From a virus: 21,773 bases of DNA. Shown in pieces: positions 3,832 through 21,773 of the stretch; the stretch's first letter is position 1; every line of letters starts with the position of its first letter. The notes below the pieces were generated by a model. That model was not told where the DNA came from and did no database searches. It worked only from the letters and a program-made list of their open reading frames with translations. The stretch lies in IMG/VR virus record IMGVR_UViG_3300037847_000579, positions 1 to 21,773 of that record; one strand, written 5' to 3'. The translations under genes were made by a program, and so were the position numbers.

Positions 3832-4446
3832 ATGCCAAAAATAAGATTACCAGATGGAAGACTTCTTAATGTTCCTGATGACATATCACCAGAAGATAAA
3901 GCTATACTTCGAGCAAAGTTAGTTGAAAAATTTCCCGAAGAATTTCGTGAAAAAACTTTTGGTGGTCAAGCATTAGAAGTTGCTAAAGGTATACCAAGAG
4001 GATTTATATCTGGTCTTTCTAGTGCAGTAGAAGGTGTTGGTGAACTTATAGGTCTTGAAGGGCTAGCACAATCACAACGAGACTTTCAACAATCATTAAG
4101 AGAAAGTGATTTGTTAGGTGCTGATAAATTATATGAAGATACTTATGTATCTAAACTTGGAGAAGGTTTAGGTTCTTTCGCATCTTTTTTTGTACCATCT
4201 ACACTAGCAGCTAAAACTGTAGGTACAATCGGCAAGGGTGGTAAAGCATTATCACAAGCAGAACGTGCTAAAGAAATGGCTAAACGTTCAACATATACTG
4301 CTGCTGGTATAGCTGCACCTATAGGTGTTTCAGAACAAACCGATAGAATAAGAGAAGCAGTTAGGAGAAGAAGTAAGTTTTGTACAAAAGAAAATAGCAC
4401 AAACTCTTGGTCTTGGTATAGGTTTAACAGAACTAGCACCTGCTGA
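3832..4446 (+). CDS. Polyvalent virion protein, N-terminal part (frameshifted)
   Basis: The protein starts MPKIRLPDGRLLNVPDD, a typical opening of giant phage polyvalent or internal virion proteins. Hydrophobic, Gly/Ala-rich stretches follow (FISGLSSAVEGVGELIG near residue 60; SFASFFVPSTLAAKTVG near residue 120). The frame stays plausible up to about TDRIREA (residues 170-175). It then runs into Arg/Ser/Thr-rich sequence and stops at 4446, while the +1 frame continues with VSFVQKKIAQTLGLGIGLTE, which fits the preceding sequence. A single extra base, or two missing bases, at about 4350-4380 would explain this. Joined, the product would be about 2329 aa. Confidence 0.7.
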   Translation: MPKIRLPDGRLLNVPDDISPEDKAILRAKLVEKFPEEFREKTFGGQALEVAKGIPRGFISGLSSAVEGVGELIGLEGLAQSQRDFQQSLRESDLLGADKLYEDTYVSKLGEGLGSFASFFVPSTLAAKTVGTIGKGGKALSQAERAKEMAKRSTYTAAGIAAPIGVSEQTDRIREAVRRRSKFCTKENSTNSWSWYRFNRTSTC

Positions 4447-7400
4447 AAGACTGTTTAAAGTATTAAGAGGAGTTCCTAAAAGTAGAGGTCAAGAGCTTCG
4501 TGTTACTGAAAGAATTACAGAAGCTTTAAAAGCAGGTGGATTTGAAGGAGCACAAGAAGCGGGTGCACAATTACTTCAAGATGCTACAGCACGAATGGTT
4601 TATTCAGATAAAATACCAATCGGTCAATCAATGCTTGATGAATTTACTGTAGGTGCTGGTGTTGGTGTTATTGCAGACCTTGCTGTTCGTGGCAGAAGAA
4701 GACCTGACACAGGAACTGAACAAGAAATAAAACAAGAAGAAAAGCTTAGAGAGTCTATGGATGTTAAGCTTAAAACTAGAGATGAAATAAAACAAAAATT
4801 ATTAGAGCAAGGTAGTCCAACCATAAATCCTAATAACGTAGTATCAGAAGAACAAATAGCACAAGAAGAAGAATACATACCAGAAGATGTAAAGCCTGCT
4901 GAGTCTGTAAAATTAATGCCATCACCTGATGGTAGTGTAAATATTGTAGGTACAATATCAGGCAATCTATATGGCAATACTACACAAGATAAAGCAGGAC
5001 AAGAAGCTGCTAAGATTGAAGATCAAATAAGGTCTGAATCTACTAGCACATTAGTCAATGATTTAAACTTTATTAATGGTAATTCTTTTAATGGCACAGC
5101 ATTTTTTATTGGACAAAAAATACACAACCCATACTCAACACAAGTAGCTATAGATCAAATAGCAAATCAAGACACTAATCTCAAAACATTTAAGAACGAA
5201 ACTAAAGCAGAAGCTATGCGTAGAAAAATGAAACGCAAAAAAATAGACCCTGCTAAATCTTATGTATCTTTTGCAGAAGCTAAAAAGTTATTAAGTCCTA
5301 AAGATTTTAATAACTTAATGATTAATAGGTCACAAGCACAAGAACAAACTAATGTATTAGACCTTAAACGTAAACCACTTACTATTGAAAAAGGTGGTAA
5401 GGTTTCTGTATCTAAACCTACATTTAATAAACTACTTAAAGAAAAAAATATAGACACAAGTTTGACATCGCCTGAGTTTGAATTCTTTTTAGAGCAAACT
5501 ACTGGTGCAAAAACTTTTGCGTCTGCAAACAAAGGACAAAAGCAAGTAGCACTTGCTAAGATACAATCGTTTCCAAAATTTAAAAGATTAACACCGCTAC
5601 CTAATTACAGACCAAGACCATATAGCGGAAGACAATTACAAGAGTTTGTAAGAAACTATAAAGAAACAGGACAAAGCAAACCAATAACCAAAGCAGCTAT
5701 TAAAAAGTATTTACCAAGACTCAATGCTCAAGGAGTTAATGATTTTTTTAATGACTTACAAACATCAGGAAGAGTTGTTGATAAACAAATTAATAATAAT
5801 TTTTATAATGAACAAGTACAAAAAGCAGAAGCTTATAATGAAACTGCACAAGAGTTTGCTGATAGATTAAGAAGTTATGGTGCTACTGATTCACAGATAA
5901 ATGAAAACATAAACTCTGTACAAATAGAAGAACAACAAGCAGAGCAACAAGAACAACAAACAGAAGTATTACAACTTGCTCCTCCAATACAAGAACAGTT
6001 TGAAGACATTAGGTCTAATGTAAGAAAGTATTTAGATGAAAAGGGTTTAAAAGATGTTGGTCTTAGATTTTCTAAAGGTTTAGAAAGTGCAACTAATTTA
6101 CAAAGAGATTCCGAAGGTAACTATTCTTTTAAAGAAAATCTTACTGATCCAGGAATGTATGACCAAGCATCTAAAGAAATAATTATAAACTTAAATGCTT
6201 TACCTAAGCAGGCGACTGACATTCAAATAGAAGAACATATTACAGAAACAGTTAATCACGAAATCATTCATGCTTTAAGAGACTTGGATTTAATTACTGA
6301 AAAAGAATATACAGACCTAGTTGCCTATGCGAAAAGAATATTGCCTGCAAGAGAAGAAACAAGAAATCTTATACCTAGAGTTCAAGCTGAATATGCTGAA
6401 CAATCAGAAGCAGTTATAGATGAAGAAATAGTAGCTGAATTATTTAGAGAGTATAAACGTAATCCAAATAAAATTGCTCCAAAACCTAAAGGTATTCTTG
6501 CTAGAATCAATGCTTTCTTAGAGGGTATAACAAGAGCTTTCAGTAAATCAGGCATTGTAAACACAGCAGACCTTCTACAAGCTATTGATAGCGGTAAGAT
6601 AGGGTCAAGGCAAAGAGGAGTATTACGAAGTCTTAGAGAGACTGTAAGGGATTCCAGTCAAGTACCATCCTTATCTAGTAGAGCATCTACAGAAACAGAA
6701 CCTGCGTATATGGATTTAACTCGTAGTGATATTTACGAAGCAACAAGTTTTGATGAACATTACAATAATGTTAGAACTGACAAGAATCCTCTTGGAGAAC
6801 AAATACCTAATGCTTTTGTTATGCGTATGCCTATTGATGCATACTTAAGATTAACTACACCCGACCAAGAATCTATAACTAAAATAAAAAAAGAAGTTAT
6901 AGAAGGTTATGGAACAGGATATAAGTTTGGAAAATTTGATCCTACTAAAGTTGATAACAAGGGATATCCTATACATTTAAATATAGATAATAAAGGAAAA
7001 GTAACATCACACGAAGGTAGGCATAGAGCCGCACTTCTTCAACGAGAAGGTGCAAGCACAATACCTGTTGTTATAAAATTACAAGAAAGACCTATGGAGT
7101 TTGTACTTGATACTCCAATGGCTAATATCAAAAGACCTTTAGACTTAGGTATTGTTGCTTTACGAAATCAATTTGGAACTGGCTATGAACTTGATTGGAA
7201 TAATGAAGATGTTGCAATGGTTCGTAGACTTAATTTCAAAGAAGATATAACCAATGCTGAACGAGTAGCAAATGCTCCAGACCTTGTGATACCAGTCTTA
7301 GCACAAAAAAATTCTTTAGTAACTGAGTCAAGAAAACTTCTTGATGTTATTAAAAACAATCCCGAAGGATTTACTATTGATGCAAAAACTGGAGAACCAA

Positions 7401-10400
7401 TAAAAAGAGGAGTTGCAGTAGCACCAGTTAAAGAAGCTGAGTATATTGTTGATGCAGATAATCTGACAGAAGACATGGTAGATGAATATGCTATAATACT
7501 TCATAGGATGTCACAGTCCACCGACAAAACCATAAGGGCAGGTGGATGGCTTAATAGTAAAGACAACAAGTATTATCTTGATGCTGTTATTATTATGGAC
7601 AATGTAGCTGATGCTCTGTATTATGCACAAGTTGGAAATCAGGAGTCAGTATTTAATATAAATACATACGAGGAGATAGATACTAATGAAGGAATCAAAC
7701 AACTCAAAGAATCTGGAGACTTTTCAAGTGAACAAAGGAATGTCATTAGAAGAGATCAGGCGAACATTAAAAGGGCATTTAGAAGCTCAAGGTTTAGAAA
7801 TCAAGCCCTCCAAGAAACCAAACAAGTCACAGTAAAAGAATACGAAGAAGCTGTACAAAATAAAGAAAATCTTGAAGAACAGAACAAGCGTTTGCAGCGT
7901 GGCGTTGTTCCTAAATATAATACAGAAGCCGACCCACTAGCACTTAAGACAGCAACTGATGTTGCTAACAACAAAACAAATCCTAAAGAAGACCAAGACA
8001 TACCTATACTTAAACGAGTAGAAGGTAAAGGTAAGGTTGTTCCTAACAAATACAAATCATTAGAAAATAGTATAGGTCAAGTCAGTCATAGCGAAGAGTC
8101 CAATGGTAATGCTTTGTTAAAACTTATGGAGCCATTGCGTAATGGACTAGAAAAGTTTACAACTAACTTTAGAAAAGAAATAGTATTTAAACTTGCCAAA
8201 GTAGAAAAAGGAATTAAAGAAGCACAAGAAAGAAATCCAGACTTGATCGCCAAAGAAAACTGGGCAGACACTGGAACAATACAAGCACTTCTTTTAGCTG
8301 ATAGATCAATAGGTATTTTTCAACAAGTATTACTAAGAGGTAGACCAAACCTTGATATGGGTATTGCCAGTGTTGATGAAAGTGGTGGCTTGTTAGATGT
8401 GCTTGAGTATTTATATACTGAAACACTTGATGCTAATGGCAATCCAATAGACAAAGAAGCTTTGTTTAAAATGTATGCTATTGGTAGAAGAGCAAAACGT
8501 CTTGATGAAAACGGATTAGAAGTTCCAGTAACACCAGAAGAGATTGAGTTGTCCCAGGAGATCGCAAAAGATTTTCCACAGATAGAAGAAACCTACGATA
8601 GATTCCAAGAGTTTAATGAAGGCATTATAGACTTTGCTGTTGACGGGGGTATTCTTCAAGAGAGAGTAACTACTGACCAGTTAATAGATATGTATAACAG
8701 TAAGGTTGAACAACCTTATGAAGTAAACTTGGCTAAAGGTAAGCAATTAATAAGAACAGAAATTCTTGATCTTATTGAGACTTACAATAGAAAACAGAAA
8801 AAAGCTAAGAATAGAATTGAAACAAGAGGTACTGCTGAGATATGGAGAGAGAACGCAGACTACTATCCTTTCTATAGAGAAATGGTTAATGGAAACCTTA
8901 ACGCACCTAAGATTGCATCAGGTTATTTAGGGGGTAATCCTCTTAACATGAGACTAAAGGGTGGTAAAGAAGACATTACACCTAATCCAATAGATGCTAT
9001 ATCAAGAAATTACATATCAATCATTACTGCTGTTAACAAAAACATAGGTATACAAAGACTTACAGATAGTTTTGTTCGAGCAAAAATGGCTCAAGAAGTA
9101 ACCAATCCTAAATTGCAAAAGGGTATTGATGTTTATCCTGTGTTCATTGACGGACAGAAAAGATATTACAAAGTAGAAGACCCAGAACTTATTGACGGAT
9201 TAAATACAGTTGGTATAGATGAACTTAATTCTGTTATGAAAGTTGTTGGAACACCTGCGGGTTGGTTGAGAGAACTTGTAACTCGTGACCCTACATTCTG
9301 GTTTAGAAACTATATGAGAGATACCTTGTCAGCCGCGATTACTTCGGGTGCAAACATGACACCATTTGTTGACTCAGCATTTGGAGCTTTTCAAGATGTT
9401 TCAATGTTAGAAAGAACTGGAGTTATAGGTGGTTATGATTTAGGTAGAGATGAAAGAGGAGTTCAAGACTTTATAAAAAGAAGAACTAAAGAGAGAAATG
9501 TTCTTAATCCTATAGATGCTACTGTAAAACTTTGGGATTTCTTAGGAGACCAAACATATAGATCAGACTATGCCACAAGAAAAGCTGTATACAATTCTGT
9601 ATTAGAAGAAACAGGTAACGAAGCAGAAGCTGTCTTCCAAGCATTAGAAGTTATTAACTTTAATAGACGTGGTGCTAATCCATTGTTTAGAGTAGTAACC
9701 GCAGGTATACCATTCCTTAATGCCAGAATCCAAGGTCTTGATGTTCTTTACAGATCGGCAACAGGAAAATATTCTGCATCTGGCAAACCAGTGGCTGGAC
9801 AAAATCAAATGGATTATGAACAAGACTTGTCAAGAAAAATGTTGACAAGACTAGGATTCTTGTCAGTGATAACTGGATTGTATTATTTATTAGTAAGCGA
9901 TGACGAAGAGTATAGAAAATTATCAAGAGAAGAAAGAGATAATTTTTGGAATGTCTTCGTAGGAGAATACAGACTTGCTGTTCCCATACCATTTGAAGTG
10001 GGTGTAATAGCAAAAGTTGTTCCCGAAAGAACATTAGACTTAGCATTTGGCGAAGACAATGCAAGAGACTTTGCTGAGTCAATGACTAGAAATATAAAGA
10101 CAACATTTAAAATAGACCCTCTTGGCTTCCAAATAATTAAACCACTAACAGAAGTTGCCAACAATAAAAGCACATTCTTTGGAACAGAGATTGTTCCATA
10201 CTATATGCAAAAACTTCCACCCGAATTACAGTACAATCAAAGCACTAGCGAGTTTGCAAAAGCAATAGGTGATGCATTAAATATTTCTCCTCTCAAAGTT
10301 GATTATCTTTTACGAGGATATGGTGGAACTATAGGAACTTATGTTTTAAGTACAGTTGATGCTGTGTTAAAAGAAACCATTGGCAATGGATTTATTCCAC

Positions 10401-10822
10401 CAAACCCAGAGCAATTACCTGTATTTAGAGCATTGATTAGAAACCCTCAAGCATCAGGTTATGTTCAACAGTTTTACGAGTTAAGAAGATTGACAGATTC
10501 TTATGTACAGGCAGTCAACAAGCTTAAGAAAGAAGGTAGGATAGATGAACTAGAAGTATACATGAAAGCTAATAGAGGTCTTGCACAAACTACAGGCAGA
10601 GTAAGAGCATTAGAAAGATACATGGAAAACTGGAGAAAGAGAAGAGATAGAATACTTTACAGTGATATGTCGGGTGCAAGAAAGAAAGAACTCATAAAAC
10701 AAATAACAGCAGAAAGAGATCAAAGGTTAGCAGTTGTTCCCGAACTAAGAGAAAATGCAGACATTCCTTTACCTTCAATATCTGATGTAGTCTTTGACCT
10801 ATTGGGTGCTGACAGACTATAA
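4352..10822 (+). CDS. Giant polyvalent virion protein (zincin, LPD38-like), main part
   Basis: The frame opens after a TAA at 4349-4351 and reads coherent protein from the first codons, though the first ATG is at 4595 (2075 aa from there); it is the continuation of the 3832 gene. Numbered from 4595: Gln-rich helices to about 470; a zincin-type site HEIIH at 555-559 followed by EEIVAELF near 610, likely a metalloprotease; a ParB-like patch HEGRHRAAL near 806; long helical regions; and from about 1560 RDPTFWFRNYMRDT, matching the LPD38 class of 'large polyvalent protein' domains. A hydrophobic segment FLSVITGLYYLLV lies near 1750. Such proteins are packaged in the capsid and injected with the DNA, where the modules act on host targets or form a conduit. 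Specific targets cannot be inferred. Confidence 0.8.
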   Translation, partial: EKQLGEEVSFVQKKIAQTLGLGIGLTELAPAERLFKVLRGVPKSRGQELRVTERITEALKAGGFEGAQEAGAQLLQDATARMVYSDKIPIGQSMLDEFTVGAGVGVIADLAVRGRRRPDTGTEQEIKQEEKLRESMDVKLKTRDEIKQKLLEQGSPTINPNNVVSEEQIAQEEEYIPEDVKPAESVKLMPSPDGSVNIVGTISGNLYGNTTQDKAGQEAAKIEDQIRSESTSTLVNDLNFINGNSFNGTAFFIGQKIHNPYSTQVAIDQIANQDTNLKTFKNETKAEAMRRKMKRKKIDPAKSYVSFAEAKKLLSPKDFNNLMINRSQAQEQTNVLDLKRKPLTIEKGGKVSVSKPTFNKLLKEKNIDTSLTSPEFEFFLEQTTGAKTFASANKGQKQVALAKIQSFPKFKRLTPLPNYRPRPYSGRQLQEFVRNYKETGQSKPITKAAIKKYLPRLNAQGVNDFFNDLQTSGRVVDKQINNNFYNEQVQKAEAYNETAQEFADRLRSYGATDSQINENINSVQIEEQQAEQQEQQTEVLQLAPPIQEQFEDIRSNVRKYLDEKGLKDVGLRFSKGLESATNLQRDSEGNYSFKENLTDPGMYDQASKEIIINLNALPKQATDIQIEEHITETVNHEIIHALRDLDLITEKEYTDLVAYAKRILPAREETRNLIPRVQAEYAEQSEAVIDEEIVAELFREYKRNPNKIAPKPKGILARINAFLEGITRAFSKSGIVNTADLLQAIDSGKIGSRQRGVLRSLRETVRDSSQVPSLSSRASTETEPAYMDLTRSDIYEATSFDEHYNNVRTDKNPLGEQIPNAFVMRMPIDAYLRLTTPDQESITKIKKEVIEGYGTGYKFGKFDPTKVDNKGYPIHLNIDNKGKVTSHEGRHRAALLQREGASTIPVVIKLQERPMEFVLDTPMANIKRPLDLGIVALRNQFGTGYELDWNNEDVAMVRRLNFKEDITNAERVANAPDLVIPVLAQKNSLVTESRKLLDVIKNNPEGFTIDAKTGEPIKRGVAVAPVKEAEYIVDADNLTEDMVDEYAIILHRMSQSTDKTIRAGGWLNSKDNKYYLDAVIIMDNVADALYYAQVGNQESVFNINTYEEIDTNEGIKQLKESGDFSSEQRNVIRRDQANIKRAFRSSRFRNQALQETKQVTVKEYEEAVQNKENLEEQNKRLQRGVVPKYNTEADPLALKTATDVANNKTNPKEDQDIPILKRVEGKGKVVPNKYKSLENSIGQVSHSEESNGNALLKLMEPLRNGLEKFTTNFRKEIVFKLAKVEKGIKEAQERNPDLIAKENWADTGTIQALLLADRSIGIFQQVLLRGRPNLDMGIASVDESGGLLDVLEYLYTETLDANGNPIDKEALFKMYAIGRRAKRLDENGLEVPVTPEEIELSQEIAKDFPQIEETYDRFQEFNEGIIDFAVDGGILQERVTTDQLIDMYNSKVEQPYEVNLAKGKQLIRTEILDLIETYNRKQKKAKNRIETRGTAEIWRENADYYPFYREMVNGNLNAPKIASGYLGGNPLNMRLKGGKEDITPNPIDAISRNYISIITAVNKNIGIQRLTDSFVRAKMAQEVTNPKLQKGIDVYPVFIDGQKRYYKVEDPELIDGLNTVGIDELNSVMKVVGTPAGWLRELVTRDPTFWFRNYMRDTLSAAITSGANMTPFVDSAFGAFQDVSMLERTGVIGGYDLGRDERGVQDFIKRRTKERNVLNPIDATVKLWDFLGDQTYRSDYATRKAVYNSVLEETGNEAEAVFQALEVINFNRRGANPLFRVVTAGIPFLNARIQGLDVLYRSATGKYSASGKPVAGQNQMDYEQDLSRKMLTRLGFLSVITGLYYLLVSDDEEYRKLSREERDNFWNVFVGEYRLAVPIPFEVGVIAKVVPERTLDLAFGEDNARDFAESMTRNIKTTFKIDPLGFQIIKPLTEVANNKSTFFGTEIVPYYMQKLPPELQYNQSTSEFAKAIGDALNISPLKVDYLLRGYGGTIGTYVLSTVDAVLKETIGNGFIPPNPEQLPVFRALIRNPQASGYVQQFYELRRLTDSYVQAVNKLKKEGRIDELEVYMKANRGLAQTTGRVRALERYMENWRKRRDRILYSDMSGARKKELIKQITAERDQRLAVVPELRENADIPLPSISDVVFDLLGADRL
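8668..8687 (+). repeat. Dispersed 20-bp motif, degenerate copy H (in gene)
   Basis: AACTACTGACCAGTTAATAG differs from the best match (copy G) at three positions. It lies inside the giant virion gene, in coding orientation and in the same codon phase as the other in-gene copies (reads T-D-Q-L-I-D). It could be a chance resemblance. Confidence 0.4.
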
Positions 10823-17022: not shown

Positions 17023-17503
17023 TCTTCATGTTAATGATGTAGGTAATCCACAATTACATCAAAGAAACAAGGTTAAGATTACGAGAATAGGAACTTCCAG
17101 TGTTGGTAGGGCAGTTGTTATAGATCAACACATCATTGATGTTCTATTGTTTGATAAAAAAATTAGCCCTGAAAGTCATCAGGTGCTAGAAAAATATCTT
17201 GAAATGATAGCCGTAGCAACAGGGAGTTCCTCAATAGATTTAGCCAAAGCAAATATTGACCAGTCATATAAAGCTGTAATACCCAAGTCAGTAATACTTA
17301 TCAAGGTGCAAAAGAGATTGCGGAAAGACTTAGGGTTTAATGGAGAGAAAGAGTTTTGGAACATCATGGTTGACCACCCACAAAAGATTAGTGAGTATAA
17401 GATTGATTTGGTTTTGAAAGCTAGTGAATCTCTATCTTCTTATTGGTATAGCTACACTAAGAATCCAGTTTCTTCTTTGCAATCAGCGATTTTAGACCAA
17501 TAG
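16988..17503 (+). CDS. Conserved phage protein, unknown function (171 aa)
   Basis: The ATG at 16988 lies in the 3' end of the primase-helicase gene (35-nt overlap) with no strong ribosome-binding site. The N-terminus (KVKITRIGTSSVGRAVVIDQ, then DVLLFDKKISPESHQVLEKY) resembles a family recalled from other tailed phages next to replication genes, with unknown role. A copy of the dispersed motif lies in the middle (KANIDQSYK). The C-terminus is helical (IDLVLKASESLSSYWYSYTK). The 3' end overlaps the - strand RHH-like gene tail-to-tail by 47 nt, so the two transcripts are antisense there. Confidence 0.65.
   Translation: MTKKTTTIGLSNLHVNDVGNPQLHQRNKVKITRIGTSSVGRAVVIDQHIIDVLLFDKKISPESHQVLEKYLEMIAVATGSSSIDLAKANIDQSYKAVIPKSVILIKVQKRLRKDLGFNGEKEFWNIMVDHPQKISEYKIDLVLKASESLSSYWYSYTKNPVSSLQSAILDQ
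17251..17270 (+). repeat. Dispersed 20-bp motif, copy E (in gene)
   Basis: AAATATTGACCAGTCATATA lies inside the 171-aa gene in coding orientation and reads N-I-D-Q-S-Y. It matches the consensus except near the 3' end. Confidence 0.8.
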
Positions 17504-17732
17504 ATTCTTCCTGCTCCGCAGAAATATTTTGCTCCAGCTCTTCTGAATTTTTTTCCACTGGTTCTTTTATATCTAAACTTAAGTCAGCATTTTTTGAGTA
17601 GTCTTTTATCAGTTGAATGATCTGTTTAGTTACACTTCTACCCTCTATCTTTGCGATAGTGTGTGCTAAGTTGTAAGTGTCTTCGTCTACTCTAATGTAA
17701 AGTGTTTTTTCTGTATTCTTCATAGTCATCAT
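17457..17732 (-). CDS. Probable ribbon-helix-helix DNA-binding protein
   Basis: The product has up to 91 aa, with candidate ATGs at 17732, 17729 and 17723; the last reduces the overlap with the upstream gene and starts right before the domain. TEKTLYIRVDEDTYNLAHTI, then AKIEGRSVTKQIIQLIKDYS, fits the strand-helix-helix pattern of Arc/CopG-type proteins, which bind operator DNA as dimers through the strand. The C-terminal half is acidic and disordered (VEKNSEELEQNISAEQEESI). It is the only obvious transcription-regulator candidate in the window and lies beside the hairpin-rich intergenic region. A palindromic DNA target, such as the dispersed motif, is possible but untested. Confidence 0.65.
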   Translation of the reverse strand: MMTMKNTEKTLYIRVDEDTYNLAHTIAKIEGRSVTKQIIQLIKDYSKNADLSLDIKEPVEKNSEELEQNISAEQEESIGLKSLIAKKKLDS

Positions 17733-17994
17733 TTTCCATAGTCATGCCAATCATTATTATTTCCCCGCCATGTTCAAACATAAACTTATGAGTAAGCAAA
17801 TCTATTGCATACTTTTTTAAATGCGGATTACCAAACCTAGGTTCATCTAATAACTTAATGGCAAATTCTAAAGCTTCTTCAATAGTATCAAAGTTCCATA
17901 CATAGTTTTGGAATGAGCCAATACTAGCACCCATACTACCTATGTAGTCCTTATCTTCTACGATTACATAAGTTCTTCTTACCACTGAAAACAT
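17692..17994 (-). CDS. Hypothetical 100-aa protein
   Basis: The start MFSVVRRTYVIVEDKDYIGS lies 7 nt after a perfect TATAAT, so its mRNA is probably leaderless. The protein appears alpha/beta (QNYVWNFDTIEEALEFAIKL resembles a strand followed by a helix). I do not recognise a family. The 3' end overlaps the RHH-like gene by up to 41 nt, which suggests the two are co-expressed from the promoter at 18002-18029. Confidence 0.6.
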   Translation of the reverse strand: MFSVVRRTYVIVEDKDYIGSMGASIGSFQNYVWNFDTIEEALEFAIKLLDEPRFGNPHLKKYAIDLLTHKFMFEHGGEIIMIGMTMENDDYEEYRKNTLH

Positions 17995-18029: not shown

Positions 18030-18041
18030 TCACTTTATATA
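18013..18041 (+). promoter_or_regulatory. Rightward promoter into the non-coding region
   Basis: TTGATA (18013-18018), a 17-bp spacer, and TATATA (18036-18041). No ORF follows; the next signal downstream is the terminator at 18455-18484. Confidence 0.5.
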
Positions 18042-18145
18042 GACACTAATTCAGTAATCATGTATCATTGTGTTAGGTTTATATTTTGTAATTGAACTCA
18101 TTTAAACCTAGAAAGTAACTACCGAACAAACGTAGAGTGAATTCA

Positions 18146-18170
18146 GATAGTGTAGGTTAGTCAGCTATCA
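18146..18170 (+). repeat. 25-bp direct repeat, copy 1
   Basis: It starts GATAGTGTAGG and ends AGTCAGCTATCA, and is identical over 25 bp to 18373-18397. GATAG and CTATC at its ends can pair, leaving a 15-nt loop. Confidence 0.85.
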
Positions 18171-18372
18171 TTCATCTAACGATACAGTGAAGGGTAGTCT
18201 AAGAGGAGTTCCTGTTGGTTGAGTATAAACAACCTATGAAAAGATGCTTTCGTAATTAGTCTGATTTTTCCGCGTGTGCGGTGGCTTGTACAGACGATAA
18301 ACAACAAAGTCATAATCTGTTGACAGACTTTGCAAGTAATTTAAGCTGTCGTTAAATAAATCAAACTTGTTT

Positions 18373-18397
18373 GATAGTGTAGGTTAGTCAGCTATCA
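18373..18397 (+). repeat. 25-bp direct repeat, copy 2
   Basis: Identical to 18146-18170. Here the flanks extend the stem to TTGATAG with CTATCAA (7 bp), leaving the same central sequence in the loop. Copies begin 227 bp apart. Confidence 0.85.
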
Positions 18398-18454
18398 ATT
18401 ATTAGTATGTATGTTTTAATTGCCTACCTCCTTTTATTGTTAGGTAATTATCTT

Positions 18455-18484
18455 AAGGGGTAACATTAGTTACCCCTTTTTTAT
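18455..18484 (+). terminator. Strong rightward intrinsic terminator
   Basis: AAGGGGTAAC (18455-18464) pairs perfectly with GTTACCCCTT (18469-18478) across a 4-nt loop, followed directly by TTTT and AT-rich sequence. It ends transcription coming from the promoter at 18013. Confidence 0.85.
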
Positions 18485-18514
18485 TGAGAAAAAAAAATAA
18501 CTTGTGTGTTATAC

Positions 18515-18601
18515 TTTAGTTACTCCTTGCTTTAATTGTCTAAGAACTAGATGATTAAAAAGCATTAACTAAATGAGTAAGGGGTAGCTAAATTTTTCTT
18601 T
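18515..18601 (+). terminator. Branched hairpin with U-tract (terminator-like)
   Basis: TTTAGTTACTCCTT (18515-18528) pairs with AAGGGGTAGCTAAA (18579-18592) over 14 bp with two G-U pairs, followed by TTTTTCTTT. Inside, GCTTTAAT (18529-18536) pairs with ATTAAAAAGC (18554-18563) with a small bulge. A competing pairing exists between TTTAGTTA (18515-18522) and TAACTAAA (18566-18573). Confidence 0.55.
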
Positions 18602-18648
18602 GTTAGGTTGCATGGTTGTTCCTAACATTGTAGTTATCCCTTTCTTTT
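18579..18648 (+). terminator. Alternative terminator sharing the same strand
   Basis: AAGGGGTAGC (18579-18588) can instead pair with GTTATCCCTT (18633-18642), with two G-U pairs, enclosing a TGTTAGG (18601-18607) with CCTAACA (18621-18627) hairpin, followed by TCTTTT. It is mutually exclusive with the preceding structure. Confidence 0.4.
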
Positions 18649-18692
18649 AAATCCAACCACAGAATCTAGCGGTGACCACCTGCAAAAAAATT

Positions 18693-18840: not shown

Positions 18841-19029
18841 TCATTTCATCATTCCCTCCTCCCAATCATGGAACTTTAAAAATTTTCTAACGTCCTTCAA
18901 AGAATGAAATTGATAGCTTTCGTTTTTACTATTTCTAATCATCCAAGATATGCCTGTATCAGATATATGCCAATCTTTATATTGATATTCAGATGTTCCA
19001 ATTTTCTTAAGTCTTATAGATTTACTCAT
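18841..19029 (-). CDS. Small hypothetical protein (62 aa)
   Basis: The ATG at 19029 is chosen because GGAGGAAGAAT precedes it; an upstream ATG at 19050 lies inside the previous gene without such a site. The product starts MSKSIRLKKIGTSEYQYKDW and has a small beta-rich look (WHISDTGISWMIRNSKN, SYQFHSLKDVRKFLKFHDWE). No family is recognised. The start overlaps the 47-aa gene by 8 nt. It is the last gene before the terminator at 18785-18811. Confidence 0.65.
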   Translation of the reverse strand: MSKSIRLKKIGTSEYQYKDWHISDTGISWMIRNSKNESYQFHSLKDVRKFLKFHDWEEGMMK

Positions 19030-19165
19030 ATTCTTCCTCCATTTCATCAAGAAATTGATCTACTCGCTTCGCTACCCAATCGGGTACATCGCCAATCTCT
19101 TCCTCAGTTCCGTCATTCCAAAGAATACCCAAGTTCCAAGAGATTATTTTTTTAGGTTCACTCAT
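19022..19165 (-). CDS. Small acidic protein (47 aa)
   Basis: The ATG at 19165 overlaps the previous stop (ATGA) and is preceded by GGAG at about 8 nt. The product begins MSEPKKIISWNLGILWNDGT and ends with an acidic helix (VAKRVDQFLDEMEEEYE). Overlaps at both ends (4 nt upstream, 8 nt downstream) and a good ribosome-binding site support it as real. Function unknown. Confidence 0.65.
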   Translation of the reverse strand: MSEPKKIISWNLGILWNDGTEEEIGDVPDWVAKRVDQFLDEMEEEYE

Positions 19166-19798: not shown

Positions 19799-21094
19799 TC
19801 AAGCATACAAGTCACTTAAGTCCACGTTGATTATGTCCCCAAAGCTAGGATTGAAATGCCTATACTTACCATAGTCAGATGTATTCGCCCAAATGACGGG
19901 GATATTGGGGTCGCTTTCGTCTGAGACATCCCCGTATGTATCAGTGAAATAGATTAAGCAATCTATCTCGTCCTTATCATCCGTGTATTCATTCAGCAGA
20001 TTAAACACTGGGTCGAACTCAGTACCGCCACCGCCACGAAGCTGTAAGTTAAGTTCATCGCCACAATCTAAATCATAGTCATCCCACCATTCATCCGTGT
20101 CAGTATTTTTCCTAACAACGTGGTCACAGTAGCAGACCTTAATTTGATTAATGCCAACCTCAGATGCGATATGCTGTATTTCCTTAGCGATACAATCCAG
20201 TTCGTGTTGAGACATACTTCCGCTTGTATCAATCGCTACTGCAAGCTTGCCTTGAATATCACTATTGTCTCTACTAGGTAAGAAATTGTTTTGCCAAATG
20301 AATCTTCTTTCAGACCTCTTCCAAGACTTATCTTCTGAGTTAGAGTTTAAGAAGTAATCAGTTAGTATTTCTCTCCAGTCTTGAGCAACGTGATTCTTGT
20401 CAGCTACCAGTTTAGACATCGCAGAATTACTATCCGCAAGCTTATCTATCTTTGCGGACTGGGTAATAATCTCTTTGATTTGCTGTCGCACTTCATTGAG
20501 AGCAACCCCAGTTAATTCTTTTCCGTCCTTATCTGTAGGTGCGGTAACTTCTCCAATCCCAACCTCAGTTGTTGCATCGATGTAATCATCTATTGACTGG
20601 TCAATATTTGGAGAGTTACCTGTATCAGTATCAGAATCAGAATCGTCAGAAACATTTTCGTCTTCCATCGATTTTTGTTCTTCATATTCCTCTTCTTTTT
20701 CCTGATGCAGTTCTCTATAAATTTCTTCCGCACTCTTACTGGCAAACTTATAATCAAGCAATCCACCTTCGGGTAAAGGGATTCCTTGTTTATCTAGCCA
20801 CCAGTTAATCGCATAGTCAGTAGCTACATTCCAAAGTTTATGATTCCTTTTGCCTTTCCTTACTGGATGCTCCCATATAACGTGGCTAGCTTCGTGTATT
20901 AACACTCCGCCCAGTTCATCATCAAGATGATCTTCAATAAATTTATTGTTCCACCTTATGCAAGTCCCGTCAGTACACATAGTCTCAATGCTATCGTCCT
21001 CAATCAATGGTAAGTTGAGAAGCATAGAAGCAATACCCCTATGCTTGCTCATTAACTTAGCACGGATTTTTATAAGTCTATCCGCATTAGTCAT
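19799..21094 (-). CDS. VWA-like protein with N-terminal metallopeptidase domain
   Basis: The ATG at 21094 is chosen (431 aa; GGAGGTGGTAAAG upstream) over a TTG at 21109. An N-terminal zincin-like domain has LIHEASHVIWEHP (HEASH, 67-71) and a following WNVATDYAINWW that may supply the third ligand. After an acidic linker (about 130-175), holding one copy of the dispersed motif (NIDQSID), comes a VWA domain with MIDAS motif AIDTSGSMS (DTSGS, 289-293) and GGGGTEFDPVF. This matches the DUF2201 'putative metallopeptidase plus VWA-like' family, typically paired with a MoxR-type AAA+ ATPase and a DUF3150 protein in phages. It may act in metal-dependent assembly or disassembly of a macromolecular complex. 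Confidence 0.88.
   Translation of the reverse strand: MTNADRLIKIRAKLMSKHRGIASMLLNLPLIEDDSIETMCTDGTCIRWNNKFIEDHLDDELGGVLIHEASHVIWEHPVRKGKRNHKLWNVATDYAINWWLDKQGIPLPEGGLLDYKFASKSAEEIYRELHQEKEEEYEEQKSMEDENVSDDSDSDTDTGNSPNIDQSIDDYIDATTEVGIGEVTAPTDKDGKELTGVALNEVRQQIKEIITQSAKIDKLADSNSAMSKLVADKNHVAQDWREILTDYFLNSNSEDKSWKRSERRFIWQNNFLPSRDNSDIQGKLAVAIDTSGSMSQHELDCIAKEIQHIASEVGINQIKVCYCDHVVRKNTDTDEWWDDYDLDCGDELNLQLRGGGGTEFDPVFNLLNEYTDDKDEIDCLIYFTDTYGDVSDESDPNIPVIWANTSDYGKYRHFNPSFGDIINVDLSDLYA
20590..20609 (-). repeat. Dispersed 20-bp motif, copy G (in gene)
   Basis: On the coding (-) strand AAATATTGACCAGTCAATAG, the most complete copy; TATTGAC and GTCAATA form a perfect 7+7 dyad around CA. It encodes N-I-D-Q-S-I-D in the acidic linker of the VWA protein. 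Confidence 0.85.
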
Positions 21095-21773
21095 CTTTAC
21101 CACCTCCAAACATTGAACCTAATACTTGATCGTTAAGTTCGCTTGATGCTTCCTTGAGTCCCTTGCTCACATTCTCACGTTTAGATTGAGCAAAGTCTGA
21201 ATCATCCCTAAGAGAATCTATGTCATTAATCTTGCTCATAACTGCAACCAGTTTCTGATGTGCTTGATTAACTTCCTTGATATCTCCAAAGATTTCCTTG
21301 TTAGCTTGCGGTAGATTCTCAAGCTTCTGCCTAAGCTTCTCAAAACCACTATCACGAAATGGAGACTTACCTTTATTTTTAGGGTCATAGTTCTCTAAGT
21401 TCTCCGCTAAGTGTTCCGCCAGTTCAACAAGTCCGCCTATGCTTTCCTTGATACCGCCCTCAATATTAGCTTGCACTCTTCTCTCAGTGTCAGCTTGAAT
21501 CTTAGTCATCATAGCTTCACTAACATTGAGTCTAATATCATTGCTGTGACTAGGTATTAGATTAATCTCCCAATCAAATTTGAACTTCTTAATCAGTTCG
21601 TCCTTGCTAGGATAATCTAAAGGATTATATGCGGTGCCTAGAATATGTTTAGCTTCCGCTACATTCTTGTCATACTCATTCATAAATCCTCTTACCTCTC
21701 TATCCCATTGCTCCTTAGCTTCATTCACTTTATCTTGAAGTTCATCAAGCTTTGAGTTAGGGCAAAGTCTCCA
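21087..21773 (-). CDS. DUF3150-like protein (5' end outside window)
   Basis: The frame is open to the window edge (15 further codons, reading WRLCPNSKLDELQDK), so the GTG at 21728 is probably internal. The motif VNEAKEQWDREVRGFMNEYD, then a helical middle (GGIKESIGGLVELAEHLAEN), resembles DUF3150, the protein usually encoded between a MoxR-type ATPase and a VWA protein in phage modules. The 3' end (GGGKDD) overlaps the VWA start by 8 nt and contains its ribosome-binding site. The matching AAA+ ATPase would be expected just outside the window. Function unknown. Confidence 0.75.
   Translation of the reverse strand, partial: WRLCPNSKLDELQDKVNEAKEQWDREVRGFMNEYDKNVAEAKHILGTAYNPLDYPSKDELIKKFKFDWEINLIPSHSNDIRLNVSEAMMTKIQADTERRVQANIEGGIKESIGGLVELAEHLAENLENYDPKNKGKSPFRDSGFEKLRQKLENLPQANKEIFGDIKEVNQAHQKLVAVMSKINDIDSLRDDSDFAQSKRENVSKGLKEASSELNDQVLGSMFGGGKDD

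Follow-up and report, generated by a model that had tools for sequence, protein, structure and literature searches.

Gene setting and extent of the RNA locus

The window, i.e., the whole stretch of DNA that was analysed (21,773 nucleotides), covers the initial 21.8 kb of a virus record of 30.3 kb and bears genes for a primase-helicase, an Erf-type annealing protein, an exonuclease and a VWA/metallopeptidase protein, with terminase and portal genes, named by reading, lying beyond it in the same record. The RNA region considered here (18048-18484) is flanked by two minus-strand genes, namely 17692-17994 and 18841-19050, both neighbours of the plus-strand array being thus encoded on the opposite strand. 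The longest frame starting in 18030-18660 reaches only 45 aa, on the minus strand, and the region is non-coding on both strands, in line with the lack of any credible ORF reported in the initial annotation. In the window, no tRNA or tmRNA gene was detected by ARAGORN. No Rfam family, whichever it was, reached its gathering score in the window or in about 255 kb of related loci, every match at E up to 10 lying far under it, which supports the earlier impression that the RNA belongs to no known family.

Judging from the sequence, the transcript likely extends over about 18074-18484, i.e., ~410 nt. At the 3' end, an intrinsic terminator (18455-18484, plus strand, as for all the RNA features below) combines a perfect 10-bp stem (18455-18478) with T6 and reaches z = -4.1 when folded alone, as expected from the perfect terminator originally described. 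At the 5' end, the promoter-like element TAGACA-17-TATCAT (18040-18068) is indeed present with 10/12 matches, but such sites are not above chance in the scanned region (10 against 13.7 +/- 3.3 in shuffles). As such, the 3' end of the span first proposed (18048-18484, ~437 nt) can be kept but not its start, since position 18048 falls within the promoter-like element. Taken as a whole, 18074-18484 folds at -98 kcal/mol (z = -2.6), which none of 100 shuffles equalled; as to the several inverted repeats previously listed, no arm pair of at least 12 was reported.

Elsewhere in the window, a small Arc-like repressor homologue (17457-17732, minus strand; phrog_228, E = 2.7e-4) adjoins the 100-aa gene located beside the RNA. 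A DUF2201 metallopeptidase/VWA protein is encoded at 19799-21109 (minus strand), as well as in L083 (2042-3109, minus strand), near a MoxR-like ATPase recognised by reading, and relatives of both proteins occur in several array-bearing phages. A 204-aa frame with an odd C-terminal tail (3832-4446) is followed by a 2075-aa frame (4595-10822), the two being possibly one gene split by a frameshift or a sequencing error.

Structural modules of the array

Some modules were found in the window only. From the 5' end, hairpin W1 (18074-18111; TAGGTTTA/TAAACCTA) has an 8-bp stem (z = -1.95), W2 (18118-18198) comprises a long-range stem ACTACC/GGTAGT around a branched hairpin bearing the tip called T1, and W3 (18205-18254) consists of two small hairpins, W2 and W3 being predicted by MFE only (z = -1.3 and z = -1.4, respectively). 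The T1 hairpin tip, GATAGTGTAGGTTAGTCAGCTATC, is found in two identical copies (18146-18169 and 18373-18396) with a 30-nt family at 93%, and the segment 18371-18400 around the second copy folds with z = -3.0; an exact 24-nt repeat within about 750 bases is beyond chance and corresponds to the feature formerly reported as a 25-bp hairpin repeat. Another hairpin with a 10-bp stem (18417-18450; z = -4.6) lies 5' of the terminator. Profile searches of related loci recovered no homologue of W1, W2, W3 or T1, a near-exact T1 pattern gave 0 matches in viral contigs, and the structure of 18074-18256 and 18371-18450 is a prediction from one sequence with mostly weak z-scores.

Module B (18257-18320), on the contrary, is defined by homology and covariation. 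It was recognised as a 57-nt block common to the window and two contigs among the loci derived from the primase-helicase, on opposite strands relative to neighbouring genes; a pattern built from this block matched 51 viral contigs, where the flanks, on reading, proved to carry modules varying from contig to contig. Its architecture is that of a stem (18259-18263/18291-18295) enclosing a small hairpin (18270-18273/18278-18281), with a second stem (18283-18287/18307-18311) forming a pseudoknot. A search with nhmmer gave 70 matches in related loci (best about 1e-8), and a covariance model, with the window among its training sequences, scores the window at E = 2.4e-12 and finds one locus per genome, doubled in three. 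In the alignment (n = 33), 94% of cells are paired and 55 cells show double changes against 21.5 in shuffles (0/500), a count that kinship among the sequences inflates, so that the slid controls, where shifting the partner by 1-3 columns lowers pairing to below 48%, and the multiple pair types outweigh the 0/500; in the inner hairpin, for instance, a G-C pair in the window is replaced by U-A, A-U or C-G in relatives. Among paired cells, G-U (41) far exceeds A-C (9), which indicates that the folded strand of the module is the RNA strand. Scanning bacterial genomes with the B pattern yielded 16 matches; on reading, none had the flanking features of B, and they were taken as chance matches rather than as host antitoxins.

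Module E (18322-18370) is an H-type pseudoknot with homologues in 16 viral contigs, composed of stem 1 (18322-18326/18346-18350), stem 2 (18332-18337/18365-18370) and an A-rich third loop. In its alignment (n = 10, including the window), pairing amounts to 99% and double changes to 5 against 0.7 in shuffles (0/500), GACAG/CTGTC occurring among the sequences with C-G and A-U variants; the window itself has CAAGT/ACTTG where relatives have CTAGT/ACTAG, i.e., a U-A to A-U swap. Module A, a hairpin whose loop pairs downstream, was found in 22 contigs, with 97.5% of cells paired and 38 double changes against 14.4 in shuffles (0/500). For the pseudoknot stems of A, B and E alike, none of 500 shuffles matched either the paired cells or the covariation score, the inflation of such counts by kinship applying to all three.

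The initial annotation had proposed a structured non-coding RNA and had named covariance analysis of homologues as one check that could refute it. Compensatory changes were found for both B and E (0/500 each), some of them in the window itself, and the proposal is supported. The stems so supported are nonetheless pseudoknots within 18257-18370 and not the repeats that had been seen by eye. The window RNA comprises several distinct folded modules, and B and E at least are pseudoknots with evolutionary support. Energy-based de novo pseudoknot search in the window gave no clear excess over shuffles, and whole-gap MFE z-scores are uninformative, pseudoknots being missed by MFE. Over all loci, a strict pseudoknot descriptor matched intergenic DNA about twofold more than coding DNA and threefold more than shuffled DNA, with selection bias present in these ratios, and gave 0 matches in the intergenic DNA of the window; these ratios are accordingly not taken as proof.

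Mosaic organisation

Variously ordered, the structured pieces come back in well over a hundred marine viral sequences besides the window, in arrays that sit between genes, in gaps a few hundred nt long. An array holds up to seven recognised modules and, with modules assigned by profile search, at least 41 different arrangements of two or more modules were counted. A loose grammar is apparent, where A, G, H, I or F commonly precede B and C, D, E or Y commonly come after; apart from B, which a few arrays carry twice, the modules within an array differ from one another. Since B served as the anchor of most scans, its ubiquity is in part a matter of ascertainment, and most contigs found via the tip motif described below are devoid of B.

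This 18-nt hairpin-tip motif, CCTAGATTNAATTCGGGG (for example, L107:11065-11082), is present in at least 120 viral contigs, L084-L194 among them, where it is usually preceded by TATAAAT or similar and caps many unrelated stems. It was found in 29 groups of parent context; at least 7 Watson-Crick pairs can form between its flanks in 41% of these contexts, compared with 3% after shuffling, and identical parent stems, by reading, also bear other tips. In sequence terms, the motif looks like an aptamer or a protein-binding tip, and the T1 repeat of the window looks like the tip swapping seen among other arrays. The locus belongs to an array family that exchanges modules as cassettes, combined in many orders; what had been taken for a single novel RNA is indeed unmatched in Rfam but belongs to a widespread family in which modules are shuffled. 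The anatomy of the locus, namely a modular non-coding RNA of ~410 nt with an intrinsic terminator, the pseudoknots B and E and membership of the array family, can be considered as highly probable.

Phage lineages, orientation and downstream genes

The contigs bearing arrays stem from at least two phage lineages, (i) one with the primase-helicase and exonuclease of the window, and (ii) one with a terminase that shares 64-65% identity with those of Pelagibacter phages HTVC115P, HTVC103P and HTVC104P. A DNA search of cultured phages with three array queries gave no match. In phage HTVC115P (L195), an H-type pseudoknot candidate (7792-7830; GTTGG/CCAAC and AGTAGT/ACTACT) sits in a 404-nt gap before the gene for an ssDNA-binding protein and may represent a cultured relative but is not significant by itself, since descriptor matches occur genome-wide at about the shuffled rate; BLAST matches of this candidate to gut phages corresponded to AT-rich promoter-like DNA and were discarded.

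A same-strand gene preceded by a Shine-Dalgarno sequence lies within 700 nt in 66/77 contigs with B, at a median of 110 nt. Being mostly directly 5' of such a gene, the arrays could equally well play a role in cis, where the pseudoknots of a leader or spacer would protect, process or tune the next mRNA, their sequence being free to drift as long as the structure is kept, and the location of the arrays in short intergenic gaps agrees with this. Against it, the downstream genes of the 66 contigs belong to 29 unrelated protein families, so that there is no fixed target gene; an intrinsic terminator closes the array in the window as well as in L034, L054 and L080, and the window has no same-strand gene next. 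At the same site, moreover, orientation is flipped, the array of L003 (8688-8859, minus strand) being inverted compared to the window (18257-18320, plus strand) and L002 (8816-8985, plus strand) relative to the orthologous 100-aa gene; a search for orthologues of this neighbouring gene returned just two contigs, both already found. The strict sequence conservation of the 18-nt tip also exceeds what a spacer needs. Overall, a cis leader is a possible but rather unlikely explanation, and the absence of a fixed gene, the closing terminator and the occurrence of either orientation at a syntenic site favour action in trans; on balance, the RNA would seem to be transcribed and to act in trans rather than on the neighbouring gene.

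Relationship to known RNA systems

The known phage non-coding RNAs mostly form single families. Compared to riboswitches of the preQ1 and SAM-II types, the arrays share compact H-type pseudoknots and a frequent position 5' of a gene, but match no such Rfam family, are heterogeneous tandem arrays and show no consistent downstream gene.

Like ROOL and GOLLD, the RNA of the window is large, pseudoknotted, phage-borne and of unknown function (PMC12286853). It could accordingly be regarded as a single large, ornate RNA whose peripheral domains can be exchanged, forming an RNA-only or an RNA-protein particle, as the module order is non-random, the length of several hundred nt and the wealth of pseudoknots fit, and GOLLD likewise combines a 5' region that varies with a 3' region that is conserved (PMC12286853). 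Unlike ROOL and GOLLD, however, the arrays have no constant core, no domain being present throughout and B itself being missing from most tip-motif contigs and its prevalence elsewhere partly due to ascertainment; the cassettes are reordered, the window is free of tRNA genes, and GOLLD, ROOL and OLE are absent from the matches of the Rfam scan. We therefore hold the ornate RNA as unlikely. Less likely still are mobile DNA-level hairpin cassettes spreading by recombination without RNA function, which the swapped tips, the shuffled orders and the Erf-type annealing protein and exonuclease of the window phage would suit but which are very improbable, since the G-U over A-C asymmetry of B on one strand and the fact that about 50 arrays (read off the table) share the strand of the gene that follows both suggest that selection acts on RNA.

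Type III antitoxins are toxin-specific pseudoknots, the CptI units being of H-type with a short first loop and an A-rich last loop (PMC5086642). Like those antitoxins (ToxI, CptI, TenpI), the arrays consist of small pseudoknots, here with covariation for A, B and E and with a module shape of the CptI type (H-type, a short first loop and an A-rich last loop); unlike them, where one unit is repeated in tandem, the modules differ from one another and the arrays are mosaic. None of 21 array-bearing records exceeded the gathering score of the ToxI model (RF02519; best 18 bits against 50), and none of 22 records matched ToxN (PF13958), control genomes likewise giving no match.

No earlier description was matched in Rfam, in cultured-phage records or in the open-licence literature searched, one elsewhere being possible. 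The novelty resides in the mosaic organisation, which suggests a type of phage RNA not described before, and does not rest on a known function.

Proposed function

The best overall explanation, to which we would give a probability of roughly 0.4, is that of a trans-acting mosaic RNA presenting several protein-binding pseudoknots, perhaps as a polyvalent decoy. One such RNA would present several different pseudoknots at once, each of them occupying one host RNA-binding protein, in the way that the pseudo-ToxI of phage PhiTE, an RNA mimic of ToxI by which this phage escapes ToxIN, occupies ToxN (PMC3475682). The targets would most plausibly be RNA-recognising defence nucleases, i.e., of the kind of type III toxins. 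Since each type III antitoxin is specific for its toxin, it would pay a phage that meets many hosts to gather a variety of them and to reshuffle them, and this would account for the mosaic. The narrower proposal, a decoy against host RNA-binding defence nucleases, is the mechanism that we favour, albeit at a rather low probability. Few toxin-antitoxin systems are probably present in SAR11-like hosts, which would count against it. Slightly less doubtful, yet tentative, is the proposal that two or more marine phage lineages share a pool of RNA cassettes, mostly pseudoknots and hairpin tips, recombined into mosaic RNAs that act in trans as decoys or effectors with several host proteins as targets.

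If structured RNA cassettes are indeed pooled and reshuffled between phages with their pairing kept, this would represent a novel mode of evolution of RNA genes. Mosaic trans-acting RNAs, if confirmed, would constitute the RNA counterpart of a gene-cassette array, and the decoy, if true, an RNA-based counter-defence of phages in the ocean, some of them related to phages infecting SAR11. The cassettes offer small and direct test objects.

A second structured RNA downstream

A second, separate structured RNA lies immediately 3' of the terminator, at 18512-18660 (plus strand; z = -5.8, 0/200 shuffles). No homologue was recovered in related loci, and an extended -10-like element, TGTTATACT (TG-T-TATACT), is located just upstream of it, near 18505-18514.
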